Shown: positions 53,737 through 59,582 of the stretch, one piece after another | Layout: every line of letters starts with the position of its first letter | How positions within the stretch are numbered: the stretch's first letter is position 1 | Source: Klebsiella sp. BIGb0407 | GTDB lineage: Bacteria; Pseudomonadota; Gammaproteobacteria; Enterobacterales; Enterobacteriaceae | Direction: 5' to 3' | DNA: 64,000 bases | Assembly (NCBI RefSeq): GCF_024807845.1 | Contig: NZ_JANUEQ010000008.1 | Location: 186,001 to 250,000 of the forward strand | The notes under the pieces: generated by a model | The model's database searches: none | What the model saw: only the letters and a program-made list of their open reading frames with translations | What the model was told of the DNA's origin: nothing | Translations under genes and position numbers: made by a program

Positions 53737-54987
53737 ATGGAAAGCAAAGTAGTCGTTCCGACGGAAGGTACAAAGATCACCCTGCAAGATGGCAAACTCA
53801 CTATCCCTAATAACCCAATCATTCCTTTTATTGAAGGTGATGGTATTGGTGTGGATGTCACCCCAGCGATGATCAAAGTCGTTGATGCCGCCGTTGAAAA
53901 AGCCTACAAAGGCGAGCGGAAAATTTCCTGGATGGAAATCTATACCGGCGAAAAATCTACCCAGGTTTATGGGGAAGATGTCTGGTTGCCACAAGAAACG
54001 CTCGACTTGATTCGTGATTACCGTGTTGCTATTAAAGGACCTCTGACGACGCCAGTCGGTGGTGGTATTCGTTCTCTGAACGTTGCTCTGCGTCAGCAGC
54101 TTGACCTGTACGTTTGTCTGCGTCCGGTGCGTTACTATGACGGCACCCCAAGCCCGGTTAAACACCCGGAACTGACCAATATGGTTATCTTCCGTGAAAA
54201 CTCAGAAGATATCTATGCGGGTATCGAGTGGAAAGCCGACAGTGCTGAAGCGCAGAAAGTGATTAAGTTCCTGCGTGACGAAATGAACGTGACCAAAATC
54301 CGCTTCCCTGAACATTGTGGTATCGGCATCAAGCCATGTTCAGAAGAAGGTACCAAACGCCTGGTACGTGCTGCCATTGAATACGCAATCACCAACGATC
54401 GCGACTCACTGACTCTGGTACACAAAGGCAACATCATGAAGTTCACCGAAGGTGCCTTTAAAGACTGGGGTTACCAGCTGGCACGTGAAGAATTCGGCGG
54501 CGAACTGATCGATGGCGGTCCTTGGGTTAAAATCAAAAATCCAAATACCGGTAAAGAAATTATCGTTAAAGACGTTATCGCTGACGCCTTCCTGCAACAG
54601 ATCCTGCTGCGCCCGGCTGAATATGACGTTATCGCTTGTATGAACCTGAATGGTGACTACATTTCTGATGCACTGGCCGCTCAGGTTGGTGGTATCGGTA
54701 TCGCCCCAGGCGCCAACATCGGTGACGAATGCGCACTGTTTGAAGCAACCCACGGCACCGCACCAAAATATGCAGGCCAGGATAAAGTGAACCCAGGTTC
54801 AATCATCCTGTCTGCTGAAATGATGCTCCGTCACATGGGCTGGTTCGAAGCAGCTGACCTTATCGTTAAAGGGACCAGCGGCGCAATCAACGCGAAAACC
54901 GTGACTTATGATTTCGAACGCCTGATGGATGGCGCTAAACTGCTGAAATGTAGCGAGTTTGGTGACGCAATCATCGAAAACATGTAA
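53737..54987 (+). CDS. icd: NADP-dependent isocitrate dehydrogenase
   Basis: Icd oxidises isocitrate to 2-oxoglutarate in the citric acid cycle and is inhibited by AceK phosphorylation of S113, seen here in G-G-G-I-R-S-L-N. The 416 residues and the C terminus [16 protein letters not shown] equal E. coli. The 3' end of icd is the integration site of e14 and phage 21. Since a prophage begins directly after it, the last part of this reading frame may be the phage-carried copy of the target. Confidence 0.97.
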
Positions 54988-55011
54988 TTCCGTTTTCGGT
55001 TGAAAAATAAG

Positions 55012-55038
55012 CGGGAGCCTGATGGTTCCCGTTTTTTT
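55012..55038 (+). terminator. Rho-independent terminator after icd
   Basis: The 8-bp stem CGGGAGCC / GGTTCCCG with TGAT loop is followed by eight T residues, 24 bp after the icd stop. Confidence 0.9.
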
Positions 55039-55151: not shown

Positions 55152-56858
55152 ATGTCCAATCACATTACTAAAATAAAACAGATTAAAATTATCAATTTTC
55201 GTGGTTTGAATAATTGCATTATAAATTTTGGCGAGCGAATAACTGCCATTTGTGGGAAAAATGGAACGTCAAAGTCTACAATTCTTGGTATCGCAGCTCA
55301 GATGTTTAATTTTGAAACAGACTATACAAAAAAACCTACAGTAAATTTGAAAGAATACAAGTCATTAGCTGGAAGGCCATTTGTGTCTCAGTTTAGCGAA
55401 CACTTCAGACTTTCAATCACTCACGATACTCCTAGCTCAATGAGTGTCGATGTTTCTATTTATGATGGTGCTGAAGATAAGGTATTGGATAAACTAAAAC
55501 TTGGATTATACCTACGAAGTAATCACTCATCTCCACGAGCCACTGTTCGAAATAATACGACGACCAATGGTGCAAGTGATAGCCGTAAAGTAACTCATCC
55601 AGTTATTTATTTAAGTATGAAACGTCTTACGCCAGTTCCAGATAGGCAAAAATATGATGTGTCCAGCATAGATAGTTATATGATGGAAAATAAAAATGAA
55701 TTTATTTCTTTAAGTTCATATATATTAGGGGTTAGGGATTCTAATACTCTTACCAAAACTGCAGGCACAATTAATTCTATGGTCGTTAGTGGTGAAAAGT
55801 ATGATCACCAATCTGTTTCCGTAGGCGAAGATAATTTAGGGCAAATACTACAAGCAATATTTTCCTTTAGAAAACTTAAGGATGAATATCCAGATTATCA
55901 TGGTGGTATGTTGCTAATTGACGAACTTGATGCCGGACTGTTTCCTGCGGCTCAGAGACGTCTCTTAGAAAAAATGTGCTCATTATCTAGGGAATTAAAT
56001 ATTCAGATAATTTTCACCACCCATTCACCTGAGCTAATAAATAACATTGCAAATTTAAGCAAGAATGATGCTGAGAAATATAAATTAATATACCTAACAA
56101 ATACTTATGGTGCTCTAGAGGCTAAGGAGGGTTATAGTTGGGCTGATATAAAATTAGATTTGTTTAATGAAACTATTCAGTTGAATGACAAGGAGAAAAT
56201 TAAAAAAACAAATGTTTTCTTTGAAGATAAGGAAAACTTTGATTTCTATTCTGCTTTGGTTACACGTCGAGATTTGAATAGGTTGCTTAATCCGTACAAG
56301 GATATTACTCTTGGATGTGAAAATTATCTTCAGCTTTTATCTAAAAAAGTACCTGGGTTTTATCAATCAGCAATAATAGTCTTGGATGGTGATGTTAAAA
56401 AAACAAAATATGAAAATGTCATTAAGTTACCTACGAATCTACCTCCAGATCAATTAATATTTGAGTTTTTATATAATCTTGATTCGTCTGATGATTTTTG
56501 GAAAAATGAAATAAAATATACAAAATCATATTTTTTTGAAAAAACAATTAGTATTATTGACGCTTTAGGATTGACGGAAAATAAAATTGATTTAACAGTG
56601 AAAATAAATAACATGGATAAATCAAAACTTAAAGGAATAACATTACGTGTTTTATTTAAGAAGTTTACTGAAGAACAATCATTTCAGTATTTAGTCAGCA
56701 ATGGTGGTGTGAATTTTAATCCTTACAGACGATGGGCCAATGACAACCCGTTGTTGGTTGATAAATTCAATACCTCATTAGTCGAATCGTTGCGATTTGT
56801 AATAGGAGCAGAATTAGGAGTAGAGTGTGATAAGCTCAAAAGTATGCTTTCAAAATGA
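55152..56858 (+). CDS. OLD-like ATPase with TOPRIM-type nuclease half
   Basis: The 568-residue protein begins like a SMC/ABC-type ATPase: Walker A G-K-N-G-T-S-K-S at 35-42, a signature-like S-V-G-E-D-N-L-G-Q near 222, Walker B L-L-I-D-E-L-D with D257 and E258, and H291 in T-T-H-S-P-E-L. The second half fits a TOPRIM core: acidic E358 in V-F-F-E-D-K-E, a glycine turn L-G-C-E near 388, and D412-G-D414 in I-V-L-D-G-D-V. This layout is that of OLD-family nucleases, which include phage P2 Old and GajA. It is AT-rich relative to the backbone and sits between icd and the integrase with a methyltransferase next. A defence role is inferred. Confidence 0.8.
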   Translation: MSNHITKIKQIKIINFRGLNNCIINFGERITAICGKNGTSKSTILGIAAQMFNFETDYTKKPTVNLKEYKSLAGRPFVSQFSEHFRLSITHDTPSSMSVDVSIYDGAEDKVLDKLKLGLYLRSNHSSPRATVRNNTTTNGASDSRKVTHPVIYLSMKRLTPVPDRQKYDVSSIDSYMMENKNEFISLSSYILGVRDSNTLTKTAGTINSMVVSGEKYDHQSVSVGEDNLGQILQAIFSFRKLKDEYPDYHGGMLLIDELDAGLFPAAQRRLLEKMCSLSRELNIQIIFTTHSPELINNIANLSKNDAEKYKLIYLTNTYGALEAKEGYSWADIKLDLFNETIQLNDKEKIKKTNVFFEDKENFDFYSALVTRRDLNRLLNPYKDITLGCENYLQLLSKKVPGFYQSAIIVLDGDVKKTKYENVIKLPTNLPPDQLIFEFLYNLDSSDDFWKNEIKYTKSYFFEKTISIIDALGLTENKIDLTVKINNMDKSKLKGITLRVLFKKFTEEQSFQYLVSNGGVNFNPYRRWANDNPLLVDKFNTSLVESLRFVIGAELGVECDKLKSMLSK

Positions 56859-56932
56859 GGTTCTGATTTTGCTGTACTCAGGAATCTATTTACGTGGTAT
56901 TATATACAGTGATGTTAAATGTTGAGTAAAAA

Positions 56933-57793
56933 ATGATGAGATTTAGCACCCCTCTTCGCTATCCCGGCGGTAAAGGTAAACTAACCAATTATCTAGTTAA
57001 ACTTATAGATATTAATGGGTTAGACGGATGTGAGTATGTAGAACCTTATGCTGGAGGGGCTGGGGTAGCTATAAACCTTTTGTTGTCTAATAAAGCATCA
57101 AACATCCATTTGAATGACTTAAATAATGCCATTTATTGCTTTTGGAAATCAGTTTTAGATGATACTGAACATTTGTGTTATTTAATAGAAAACACATCTG
57201 TTAATATGGATGAGTGGTACAAAAATAAAGAAATTATAAATAATCAAGATCAACATTCTTCTATTGAAATTGGGTTTGCAACCTTCTTTTTAAATCGAAC
57301 AAATCGTTCTGGTATTTTACTTGGAGGTGTTATTGGAGGAAAGGAACAATTAGGCAAGTGGAAGTTAGATGCTCGATTTAATAAAGGTGATTTGATTAGT
57401 CGAATCAATAAAATATCAGAGCGTAAGAAAAACATTCATCTATACAATCAGGATGCGAAAGAATTCTTAAGTTCTACAGTATCAACTTTTCCGAAGAATA
57501 CATTGATATATCTTGATCCTCCATATTATGTCAAAGGTAAGGGGTTATACCAAAATCATTATAGACATGATGATCATGTTGATATTGCAAAAAAAATCAT
57601 TACTAATAATGAGCAATACTGGATAGTTTCCTATGATAATACACCTGAGATAAATCAGATGTATTATGGGCTTAGAAAAGTAGAGTATGGTATTAACTAT
57701 AGTGCTCAATCACGTTATCAAGGCGCAGAGGTTATCTTTTTTTGTAAAAGAATGAATATTCCTGAAGTATCTGATCCTACCAAGGTCAAGTAG
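56933..57793 (+). CDS. D12-class N6-adenine DNA methyltransferase
   Basis: The 286-residue enzyme belongs to the Dam-like D12 class. Motif X is F-S-T-P-L-R-Y-P-G-G-K, motif I (AdoMet binding) is E-P-Y-A-G-G-A-G at 37-44, and catalytic motif IV is D-P-P-Y at 195-198. The recognition sequence cannot be read. It lies 74 bp after the ATPase gene in the same direction, with the same AT-rich composition, and its 3' end overlaps the convergent integrase by eight bases. It may protect DNA from its neighbour, signal self, or act alone. Confidence 0.85.
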   Translation: MMRFSTPLRYPGGKGKLTNYLVKLIDINGLDGCEYVEPYAGGAGVAINLLLSNKASNIHLNDLNNAIYCFWKSVLDDTEHLCYLIENTSVNMDEWYKNKEIINNQDQHSSIEIGFATFFLNRTNRSGILLGGVIGGKEQLGKWKLDARFNKGDLISRINKISERKKNIHLYNQDAKEFLSSTVSTFPKNTLIYLDPPYYVKGKGLYQNHYRHDDHVDIAKKIITNNEQYWIVSYDNTPEINQMYYGLRKVEYGINYSAQSRYQGAEVIFFCKRMNIPEVSDPTKVK

Positions 57794-58916
57794 TTTTTAT
57801 TATACTCCAATCTTTTCCCCGATCATCGTTGTATCTATCGGTCTGTTTTTGCGATTTATGTCCAAGCAATTTTCGCGTATCGATTCCTTGTTCTTTATAA
57901 AGTCTCTCCGCTAAAGATCGTTGCTCATGAAATGTAGCTGGCGTTCCATCACCCCAATTTATCTCTGTTTTATTTCTGGCTTTGGTGAAGTTTGTTGTCA
58001 GTGTATTGCCGCTGACCTGAGCACCTCGCTCTGCTTGTGATGTTGCCCGGAAATAGTGAACAAGGAAAGGGCTGACAGCATAATCGCGACAGCGAGATAC
58101 AACTTCTCTTAAACTCCAATTAATTGCGTTTAGTCTGAGAGAAAGCGGAATAGCGAGTTTACTTCCCGTCTTTTCCTGAATGATATGCAGGTGATCATCC
58201 CATATATCGCTAAATTTCATATTGGAAATATCACCAAGCCTTTGGCCTGTTACGATCGCTAATAACATCGCATTGCCCATGTACTGATGATTTGAATCCG
58301 CAATATCAAAAATACTCTGCCATTCTTCCAGGCTTAACCGCTGGCGTGTGATTTTTCGCCGTGGTTGTTTAGTTGCCTGGGCGGGGTTATATCCAGGAGG
58401 AACCTCACCGTAATGCTGGGCTTCTTTAAACACATCAATTAACACCGAGCGAATAACCTGAGCCATCCGGGGTTGTCCGTCTGCAATATAACTATCAAGG
58501 ATCTGAGCTATATCTCTCACATCAACCAGCGGAATGGGTTTCATGCCAACACGTTCGCGTAAAAGGGCTACTGGTTTTGCTTTCTGTTTAAACGTATTCA
58601 GTTTTATATCGTCATTGGCTAATCGCTCTTCCTGAATAACCCAATAGCGATCAAGCCAAGTGGTTGTGGTTATTGCTTTACCTTTGCAGGTGGCAATTTT
58701 ATCGCTGATAGCAATGATCTGGCGCGTTCTCTGTTCTGCTAATCGTGTATTTGCCTCTATGGCAATTGCTATAGCTTCTTTTTCATTATCACCCAACGAG
58801 TGGAATTTTCCGGTTATTGGGTGCTTGTAGCGCCAGTAAACCTTATTAGCCTTCCGGCTGAACATTGGATATAAATTAGGAACACTGACGTTATTTTTAC
58901 GTGGTCGAGCAGCCAT
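57786..58916 (-). CDS. int: Lambda-type phage integrase (tyrosine recombinase)
   Basis: The 376-residue recombinase integrates and excises the prophage. Its catalytic residues are R226 in T-G-Q-R-L-G-D, H330 and R333 in F-H-E-Q-R-S-L, H353 in L-L-G-H-K-S and Y362 in D-R-Y-N-D-D-R-G. The arm-binding and core-binding domains and the C-terminal R-G-K-D-W resemble lambda Int throughout. It overlaps xis by 20 bases. Its 3' end faces icd, with the two cargo genes between, so the attachment site probably lies at or in the 3' end of icd. Confidence 0.95.
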   Translation of the reverse strand: MAARPRKNNVSVPNLYPMFSRKANKVYWRYKHPITGKFHSLGDNEKEAIAIAIEANTRLAEQRTRQIIAISDKIATCKGKAITTTTWLDRYWVIQEERLANDDIKLNTFKQKAKPVALLRERVGMKPIPLVDVRDIAQILDSYIADGQPRMAQVIRSVLIDVFKEAQHYGEVPPGYNPAQATKQPRRKITRQRLSLEEWQSIFDIADSNHQYMGNAMLLAIVTGQRLGDISNMKFSDIWDDHLHIIQEKTGSKLAIPLSLRLNAINWSLREVVSRCRDYAVSPFLVHYFRATSQAERGAQVSGNTLTTNFTKARNKTEINWGDGTPATFHEQRSLAERLYKEQGIDTRKLLGHKSQKQTDRYNDDRGKDWSIIKTT

Positions 58917-59142
58917 CTGCCAAGATCCTTAAAAGTTTGGGAGGGTCTGACTTTTTGGTTTCTGGCTTGGCCAGATCACCAACAATTTCTGCATCTTCCC
59001 GTACTCGCCACGATCTGCCTTGCTTCGTGGCTGGCGGGGAAAATAGATTACTCTTCGCATACTGGCGAAGGGTATTTATTGCTGGTGGATTGCTGCGATA
59101 TTTATCAGCAGCCCACTCCTCAAGTGTTAATAGTTGAATCAT
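58897..59142 (-). CDS. xis: Excisionase
   Basis: The 81-residue protein resembles lambda Xis: L-T-L-E-E-W-A near the N terminus, a winged-helix stretch with N-T-L-R-Q-Y-A-K-S-N-L-F-S-P-P, and a basic tail. It directs Int towards excision. ATG 59142 has GGAGAG upstream and starts just before the conserved region; an in-frame start at 59211 is not favoured. It is directly upstream of and overlaps int, as in lambda. Confidence 0.85.
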   Translation of the reverse strand: MIQLLTLEEWAADKYRSNPPAINTLRQYAKSNLFSPPATKQGRSWRVREDAEIVGDLAKPETKKSDPPKLLRILADGCSTT

Positions 59143-59171
59143 GGCAAGCTCTCCACACCGGCTGCACCCGG

Positions 59172-59582
59172 TTATTTGGTTTCTGTTGCTGGTGGTTTTA
59201 TTGAAGCGCAACGCTGTTGCAGGCTTCTAATGGTCACTAGTAGCAGGTTTATATCAGTCCTACTGCCGTGAGCTATTTCAGCAATCTCCATTACCAAAGA
59301 TTTATAATCAGCGCCATCAGTCAGTGGCGGGACGGTGAAAAGTGGAATTACCCGCCTCATGTCTGCATGTGGAGTTATAGGATTGACGGTAAATAGATAG
59401 CCACAGCCGTCACGTTCAACATCGCGTAACTCTTGCTCATCAGTCCATGCGATCGGCTTCTCCGCAGCCTCTCTTCGCGCCAGTAGCTCGCGAGCCATTG
59501 ACTGGTATTCTTCATCCTGGCAGATGCAAATCATGCCTTTGTTAGCAAGTTCAGCCAGGCGCTTATTGCTCAGGTTATTCAT
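59172..59582 (-). CDS. Prophage protein of unknown function
   Basis: The 136-residue protein has the layout of Ead/Ea22-like early lambdoid products: a helical N terminus with R-E-L-L-A-R-R-E-A followed by K-P-I-A-W-T-D-E-Q-E-L. This link is by pattern only and no function is known. It overlaps the next upstream gene by four bases. Confidence 0.6.
   Translation of the reverse strand: MNNLSNKRLAELANKGMICICQDEEYQSMARELLARREAAEKPIAWTDEQELRDVERDGCGYLFTVNPITPHADMRRVIPLFTVPPLTDGADYKSLVMEIAEIAHGSRTDINLLLVTIRSLQQRCASIKPPATETK

Follow-up and report, generated by a model that had tools for sequence, protein, structure and literature searches.

What is the task of two adjacent, AT-rich genes that lie between icd and a prophage integrase gene in Klebsiella sp. 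BIGb0407? The window analysed here is a stretch of 64,000 nucleotides of this genome, and the two genes, called A and B below, are predicted to encode an ATPase with a putative nuclease site and an adenine DNA methyltransferase. An earlier note on this DNA interpreted them as a candidate defence module borne by a prophage. Our analysis supports this interpretation, with defence as the presumed role: the pair most likely acts as a little-studied defence against other viruses. Two points had escaped the earlier note. The methylase is of the PD-λ-5_B type, known from a validated defence system, and its partner A stands as an alternative to PD-λ-5_A (the A and B genes of PD-λ-5 are named here as in PADLOC).

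The locus and its prophage setting

The coordinates and the co-directional placement given for the pair in the earlier note are exact (Table 1), and its description of them as AT-rich is borne out: the G+C content is 32.2% in A and 32.5% in B, against 43.0% in the integrase gene (int), 49.1% in icd and 47.0% in the window. Both reading frames are open and 74 bases separate them. B and int are convergent, and their 3′ (stop) ends overlap by 8 bases (window positions 57786-57793). The hairpin behind icd is weak by itself since its count is no higher than the shuffle expectation. A search for a repeat of the icd 3′ end downstream to the contig end (G000:C8 up to 279330) found none, so the right end of the prophage is not seen on this contig.

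Table 1. Features of the locus in window coordinates
Feature	Position	Strand	Remarks
icd (isocitrate dehydrogenase)	53737..54987	+	upstream of A; the prophage is located just downstream, as in E. coli e14-like prophages
terminator-like hairpin 3′ of icd	55009..55034	+	one observed, against 1.2 in shuffled sequence
gene A, OLD-like ABC-ATPase whose C-terminal part is TOPRIM-like, putative nuclease effector	55152..56858	+	568 aa
TOPRIM-like C-terminal part of A, residues 341-568	56172..56855	+	E358, D359, D412 and D414 invariant in alignment
gene B, D12-class adenine DNA methyltransferase, PD-λ-5_B family	56933..57793	+	286 aa
prophage integrase (int), lambda/e14 type	57786..58916	-	Arm-DNA-bind_1 3.4e-36; Phage_integrase 5e-18; phrog_7244 2.4e-111
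excisionase	58897..59211	-	phrog_629 1.3e-27

Two E. coli strains, L65 and EC190486, have the order icd-A-B-int as well. Among 5426 complete E. coli genomes, 7 contain a close copy of the L002 pair; all seven copies lie between icd and an integrase gene, which adjoins B while icd is on the other side. Close relatives of the L002 integrase occur in 501 of the same 5426 genomes.

The icd-int interval of e14-like prophages (L004, L292-L298) is a cargo site. Its occupants comprise lit with ymfD/ymfE (L297), PtuA with an HNH protein (L295; PADLOC PtuA 2e-239, PDC-M01B 1e-114), PDC-S06 (L298; E reported as 0), a DUF262/NsnA-like gene (L004; 8.5e-32), an AAA ATPase with a small gene (L294; weak AriA match, 7e-27), a TPR protein (L296; weak matches only) and the same hypothetical genes twice (L292 and L293). 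With lit counted, a recognised or candidate defence gene is found in four of these eight other loci, a small sample from which 10 of about 18 proteins were run against PADLOC. A database record labels Lit a cell death peptidase. Lit excludes T4.

The methylase

Judged by its profile matches and motifs, B is a member of the PD-λ-5_B family, which stems from an experimentally found defence system. The PADLOC model PD-Lambda-5_B (PDLC04018) matches residues 1-283 of 286 at 4.2e-123, and the Pfam D12 profile PF02086 matches at 3.2e-19. The DPPY motif (D195-Y198) and the PGGK motif are invariant in all 13 aligned proteins, that of the window included. The intact D12 methyltransferase seen in the earlier note is confirmed in this way. 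Methylases of the B type are infrequent: of 398 genomes from the phylum to which the window belongs, only 11 contain one at E 1e-50, the window's own among them.

The ATPase and its C-terminal part

The N-terminal part of A is a predicted ATPase of the SMC/ABC type in which the Walker A and Walker B motifs and the H-loop are all present, the arrangement of the OLD family. Pfam AAA_15 matches the protein at 5.8e-20 and phrog_3940, a family of unknown function, at 3e-148. The AlphaFold2 model has a pLDDT of 92.4. Walker A (G35/N37/K41), Walker B (D257) and H291 are invariant in two sets of aligned A proteins, 11/11 and 78/78, each including the window's, as are the acidic residues E358, D359, D412 and D414. 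Residue E258 is invariant in the set of 11 and conserved in at least 90% of the set of 78. A complete ABC/SMC-type ATPase and the TOPRIM acidic residues E358, D412 and D414, both read from the sequence in the earlier note, are thus real.

A full-length profile alignment of A with 30 OLD proteins gives a probability of 99.2 and an E value of 2e-19, and it brings the E and D.D motifs of OLD into register with E358 and D412/D414 of A. Its score leans mostly on the ATPase. The C-terminal part alone performs no better than a control: in hhalign this part reaches 2.1% against the OLD proteins and 3.8% against the unrelated methylase alignment. In Foldseek, its best match has an E value of 0.28 and an OLD C-terminal region ranks second at 0.36, neither being significant. 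The Pfam OLD-like_TOPRIM profile (PF20469) does not match A at E values up to 1. The one gene that it does match in the same genome is distinct from A (G000:C1:1456472-1456666, L330). The PADLOC model ATPase-Toprim_I-B aligns to residues 239-448 at 1.2e-14. Foldseek matches of the whole model include GajA, TsOLD and retron Eco8. The TOPRIM fold of the C-terminal part is thus only modestly supported.

By sequence comparison, A is an OLD-like ABC-ATPase which carries no name in the profile libraries searched. The PADLOC-DB version used here would probably flag only the methylase at this locus because A has no strong match. The ATPase also resembles the repair and chromosome proteins Rad50/SMC. 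A housekeeping identity (SMC, Rad50 or RecF) was rejected, as the Pfam and NCBIfam matches are weak and none of the best 25 of 31 NCBIfam rows reached the cut-off. The profile search proposed in the earlier note therefore places A outside the housekeeping families, and the TOPRIM acidic residues are kept in every aligned relative. PDC-M38 was also discarded: the match is weak (8e-16) and the name is absent from the literature searched.

Linkage of the two genes

Relatives of A were searched with a profile of 11 proteins, giving 80 loci from species genomes and 79 from viral contigs, 159 in total. The 11 seed proteins (set A1) were picked by their similarity to A, and B is next door in all 11. 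The scans took the best 80 of 219 and the best 80 of 148 relatives, so the counts which follow describe the nearer relatives of A.

In 129 of the 159 loci, no more than 1.5 kb separates A from a B-type methylase, which is on the same strand downstream in 112, on the same strand upstream in 15 and on the opposite strand in two. After dereplication at 90%, a B-type methylase is found within 2.5 kb of 100 of 112 A relatives; eight are without one and four are cut by contig ends. Among the 100 linked loci, 81 hold B only and 19 hold B together with a PD-λ-5_A-type gene. The corresponding counts are 0/30 for other OLD-TOPRIM loci and 0/16 for weak ATPase-only relatives, these controls spanning about 1.5 kb each side of a short match and so offering somewhat less sequence outside the gene. 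The identities of A and B co-vary over 100 pairs (Spearman 0.62; none of 999 permutations as high). The hosts belong to Pseudomonadota, Bacteroidota, Bacillota, Actinomycetota and other phyla, and the pair is found in unrelated prophages, plasmids and genomes.

The pairing of A and B is genuine. The co-occurrence in other genomes that the earlier note had proposed to count is observed both before and after dereplication. With its dedicated methyltransferase beside a putative nuclease, the pair shows a feature of restriction–modification systems.

The eight dereplicated A relatives without a B-type methylase are L083, L089, L091, L092, L096, L107, L111 and L176. Other methylase or type I genes are present in three of them (L089, L096 and L111), and no methylase of any type was seen in the flanks of the other five (L083, L091, L092, L107 and L176). 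A therefore need not have a methylase beside it. In a lethal restriction enzyme this would be hard to explain, and it is the chief weakness of the restriction-like reading given below.

Some variants deserve mention. Relatives of A with longer N-termini, beside which no B-type methylase was detected, are present at L083:4818-6671 (Aggregatibacter), L176:4641-6662, L180-L184, L186, L187 and L193, and a repressor-like gene lies directly 5′ of the A relative in L182 and L193. In L038, L040 and L041, A is shortened or interrupted and the adjoining methylase frame, with its DPPY motif, is kept.

Exchange of partners

Seen from the methylase, A is one of two partners. The strongest 36 of 80 viral B loci (E at most 4e-53) were examined, one of which is at a contig edge. 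In the remaining 35, with visible flanks, the partner is A in 12, a PD-λ-5_A-type gene in 22 and both in one. Among the 11 genome B loci, A is present in two (one being the window), a PD-λ-5_A-type gene in six and neither within the short flank in three. Nine PD-λ-5_A-type proteins, namely six (four of them from three-gene loci) and three more, matched PADLOC models with best E values from 2e-40 to 6e-255. Loci with all three genes (A, PD-λ-5_A and PD-λ-5_B) are found in several phyla (L008/L032, L050, L057, L093 and L200). The scans with A and with B share some contigs (L025/L122, L139/L203, L148/L235, L154/L202, L191/L211 and L200/L214). Likewise, L026, L027 and L200, which contributed to the PD-λ-5_A profile, recur in the viral B partner counts as L283, L282 and L214.

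When 137 methylases are placed on a tree, the labels for their partners interleave and 26 label changes are needed. This tree comes from a quick search and has long branches and some weak forks; its well-supported branches force at least 7 to 8 changes per partner label. The labels still cluster, as none of 200 shuffles gave a number as low. Of 200 methylases, three without a visible partner had been left out beforehand. From the partner counts, the three-gene loci and the interleaved tree, the methylase looks constant whereas A and PD-λ-5_A appear exchangeable or additive.

The methylase may change as well. Relatives of A occur near C5-cytosine methylases (L089:4034-4876 (-), adjacent; L090:2934-4160 (-), about 1.2 kb off) and inside type I restriction loci (L096:5010-6485, between hsdS and hsdR; L111:4986-6488, between hsdM and hsdS). 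These four loci, all with distant A relatives, make up the whole evidence for a methylase swap, and they suggest that the nuclease arm is not tied to a single modification chemistry.

Proposed mechanism and alternative explanations

How could the two proteins work together? B, by homology of its enzyme class, would methylate adenine in host and prophage DNA at some target sequence. A, as an ABC-ATPase, probably dimerises on DNA. Its TOPRIM-like site would then cut DNA in an ATP-gated manner if the invader lacks the mark of B or shows some other non-self signal. B would thus be the self-marking arm and A the effector, and A would fill the place that PD-λ-5_A has in PD-λ-5, or join it. We regard the chances as evenly divided that A and B form a single mobile defence module of this restriction-like kind, carried as prophage cargo. 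Conserved catalytic-type residues, conserved linkage, co-divergence and partner exchange are observed; from these we infer cleavage by A, protection through methylation by B and anti-phage defence. Caution against presuming cooperation comes from P. aeruginosa PAO1161, where an OLD protein and an unlinked methylase are reported to act independently (PMC6945700).

The strongest rival is abortive infection, which we consider unlikely but worth keeping in mind. Here, a dormant A would kill or arrest the cell on sensing a phage product or damaged DNA, the methylation by B would quiet A or be monitored by it, and site-specific restriction would play no part. The fold relatives of A, which include PtuA of retron I-A/Ec78, GajA, retron Eco8 and AriA, work in multi-part systems. 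Vassallo et al. label PD-λ-5 a compacted ‘RM+Abi’ system (PMC9519451). Moreover, the PD-λ-5_A-type proteins tested likewise have no Pfam match above the cut-off, and one of them has no PDB match. On the other hand, self-marking better accounts for the tight and conserved pairing of A with enzymes that modify DNA, whose chemistry is a different one in a few loci.

It is improbable that A is a stand-alone OLD-like effector in the manner of P2 Old, a one-gene system whose annotation credits it with a block to phage lambda, with B an independent methylase which shares the cargo slots by chance. Solitary A genes do occur, as described above, but the linkage relative to the controls, the co-divergence of A and B and the adjacency conserved across phyla all speak against it. 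The pair could instead benefit the prophage, whose DNA replication, repair or control of superinfection it would support through methylation. This would fit the resemblance of the ATPase to Rad50/SMC proteins and the position next to int, but is rendered equally improbable by the absence of the pair from most E. coli genomes with an integrase relative, by its presence in unrelated prophages, plasmids and many phyla, and by the defence genes among the other occupants of the icd-int slot.

The restriction-like reading can be extended. In a modular family, one D12 methylase would be kept while the effector varies: an OLD-like ATPase-TOPRIM nuclease in some members, PD-λ-5_A in others, or the two together. 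The result would be a widespread and still unnamed class of methylase-paired OLD-like nucleases. We put this forward tentatively, at slightly less than an even chance. If it is true, the family would represent a further context class of OLD proteins and a new way of building restriction. An OLD-like nuclease would be tied to DNA modification, offering a handle on how ATPase-TOPRIM nucleases discriminate self from non-self, a process which the abstract of a preprint calls unknown for Gabija (PMC12407980). The role of the PD-λ-5 methylase would be concerned as well, since this reading suggests a constant methylase and an exchangeable effector.

Comparison with known systems

OLD proteins are divided by genomic context into class 1 (P2 Old), class 2 (GajA/Gabija), class 3 (retron Eco8) and class 4 (PARIS), and a methylase-paired class is not among these four in the consulted sections of the review (PMC10568477). 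Like OLD nucleases, A combines an N-terminal ABC-ATPase with a C-terminal TOPRIM-like part whose E and DxD motifs are in register. It differs in its partner: the known classes have either no partner or a helicase, reverse transcriptase or separate TOPRIM gene, whereas A has an adenine methylase. It has also diverged enough to give no match to PF20469. The neighbours of A are icd, the D12 methylase and int; the GajB UvrD-like helicase of Gabija and the reverse transcriptase of class 3 retrons are not next to it. The partner of PtuA (Septu, retron Ec78) is an HNH protein encoded by its own gene, an arrangement also present in L295, whereas A has a TOPRIM-like part of its own.

IbfA/HEC-04 is likewise a single-chain ATPase-TOPRIM anti-phage protein (PMC12111858). 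The PADLOC HEC-04 model matches A weakly (5.3e-21, 72.8 bits) with its best stretch confined to residues 251-299, and the available text on IbfA does not mention a D12 methylase partner (PMC12111858). Work on BREX mentions that OLD ATPases pair with nucleases of several kinds, and it refers to a previous survey of ABC-ATPase systems, said to include restriction–modification-like ones (PMC12839542). No paper describing the A-B pair was recognised in the literature searched. The statement of the earlier note that no named system has this two-gene layout agrees with this result and with the libraries, and the pair may have been described before. The ABC-ATPase survey cited in the BREX work is presumably Krishnan 2020.

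The locus resembles type I and II restriction–modification systems in that a modification methylase and a putative nuclease are encoded in tight linkage, and relatives of A lie inside type I loci. The effector in the window differs in being an ABC-ATPase with a TOPRIM-like part and a putative nuclease.

PD-λ-5 was discovered by functional selection in E. coli; its protection is reported to be broad and was assayed in an mrr-deleted host (PMC9519451). Mrr_cat (PF04471) gives no match in the window's whole genome and does match in the E. coli control. PD-λ-5 proper was ruled out because A is unmatched by PD-λ-5_A, whereas the nine PD-λ-5_A-type proteins match. PD-Lambda-5_A is absent from the best 25 of 115 PADLOC matches of A (the 25th at 7e-12). 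Two PD-λ-5_A models have no match in the window's genome. One of them does match in 7 of 247 other genomes; the blank of the second shows little alone since this model matched in no control genome. PD-λ-5 and the pair described here share the methylase family, the two-gene design and the occurrence in prophages, with some loci holding all three genes. They differ in the partner of the methylase: where PD-λ-5 has PD-λ-5_A, the window has an OLD-like ATPase that carries a TOPRIM-like part.
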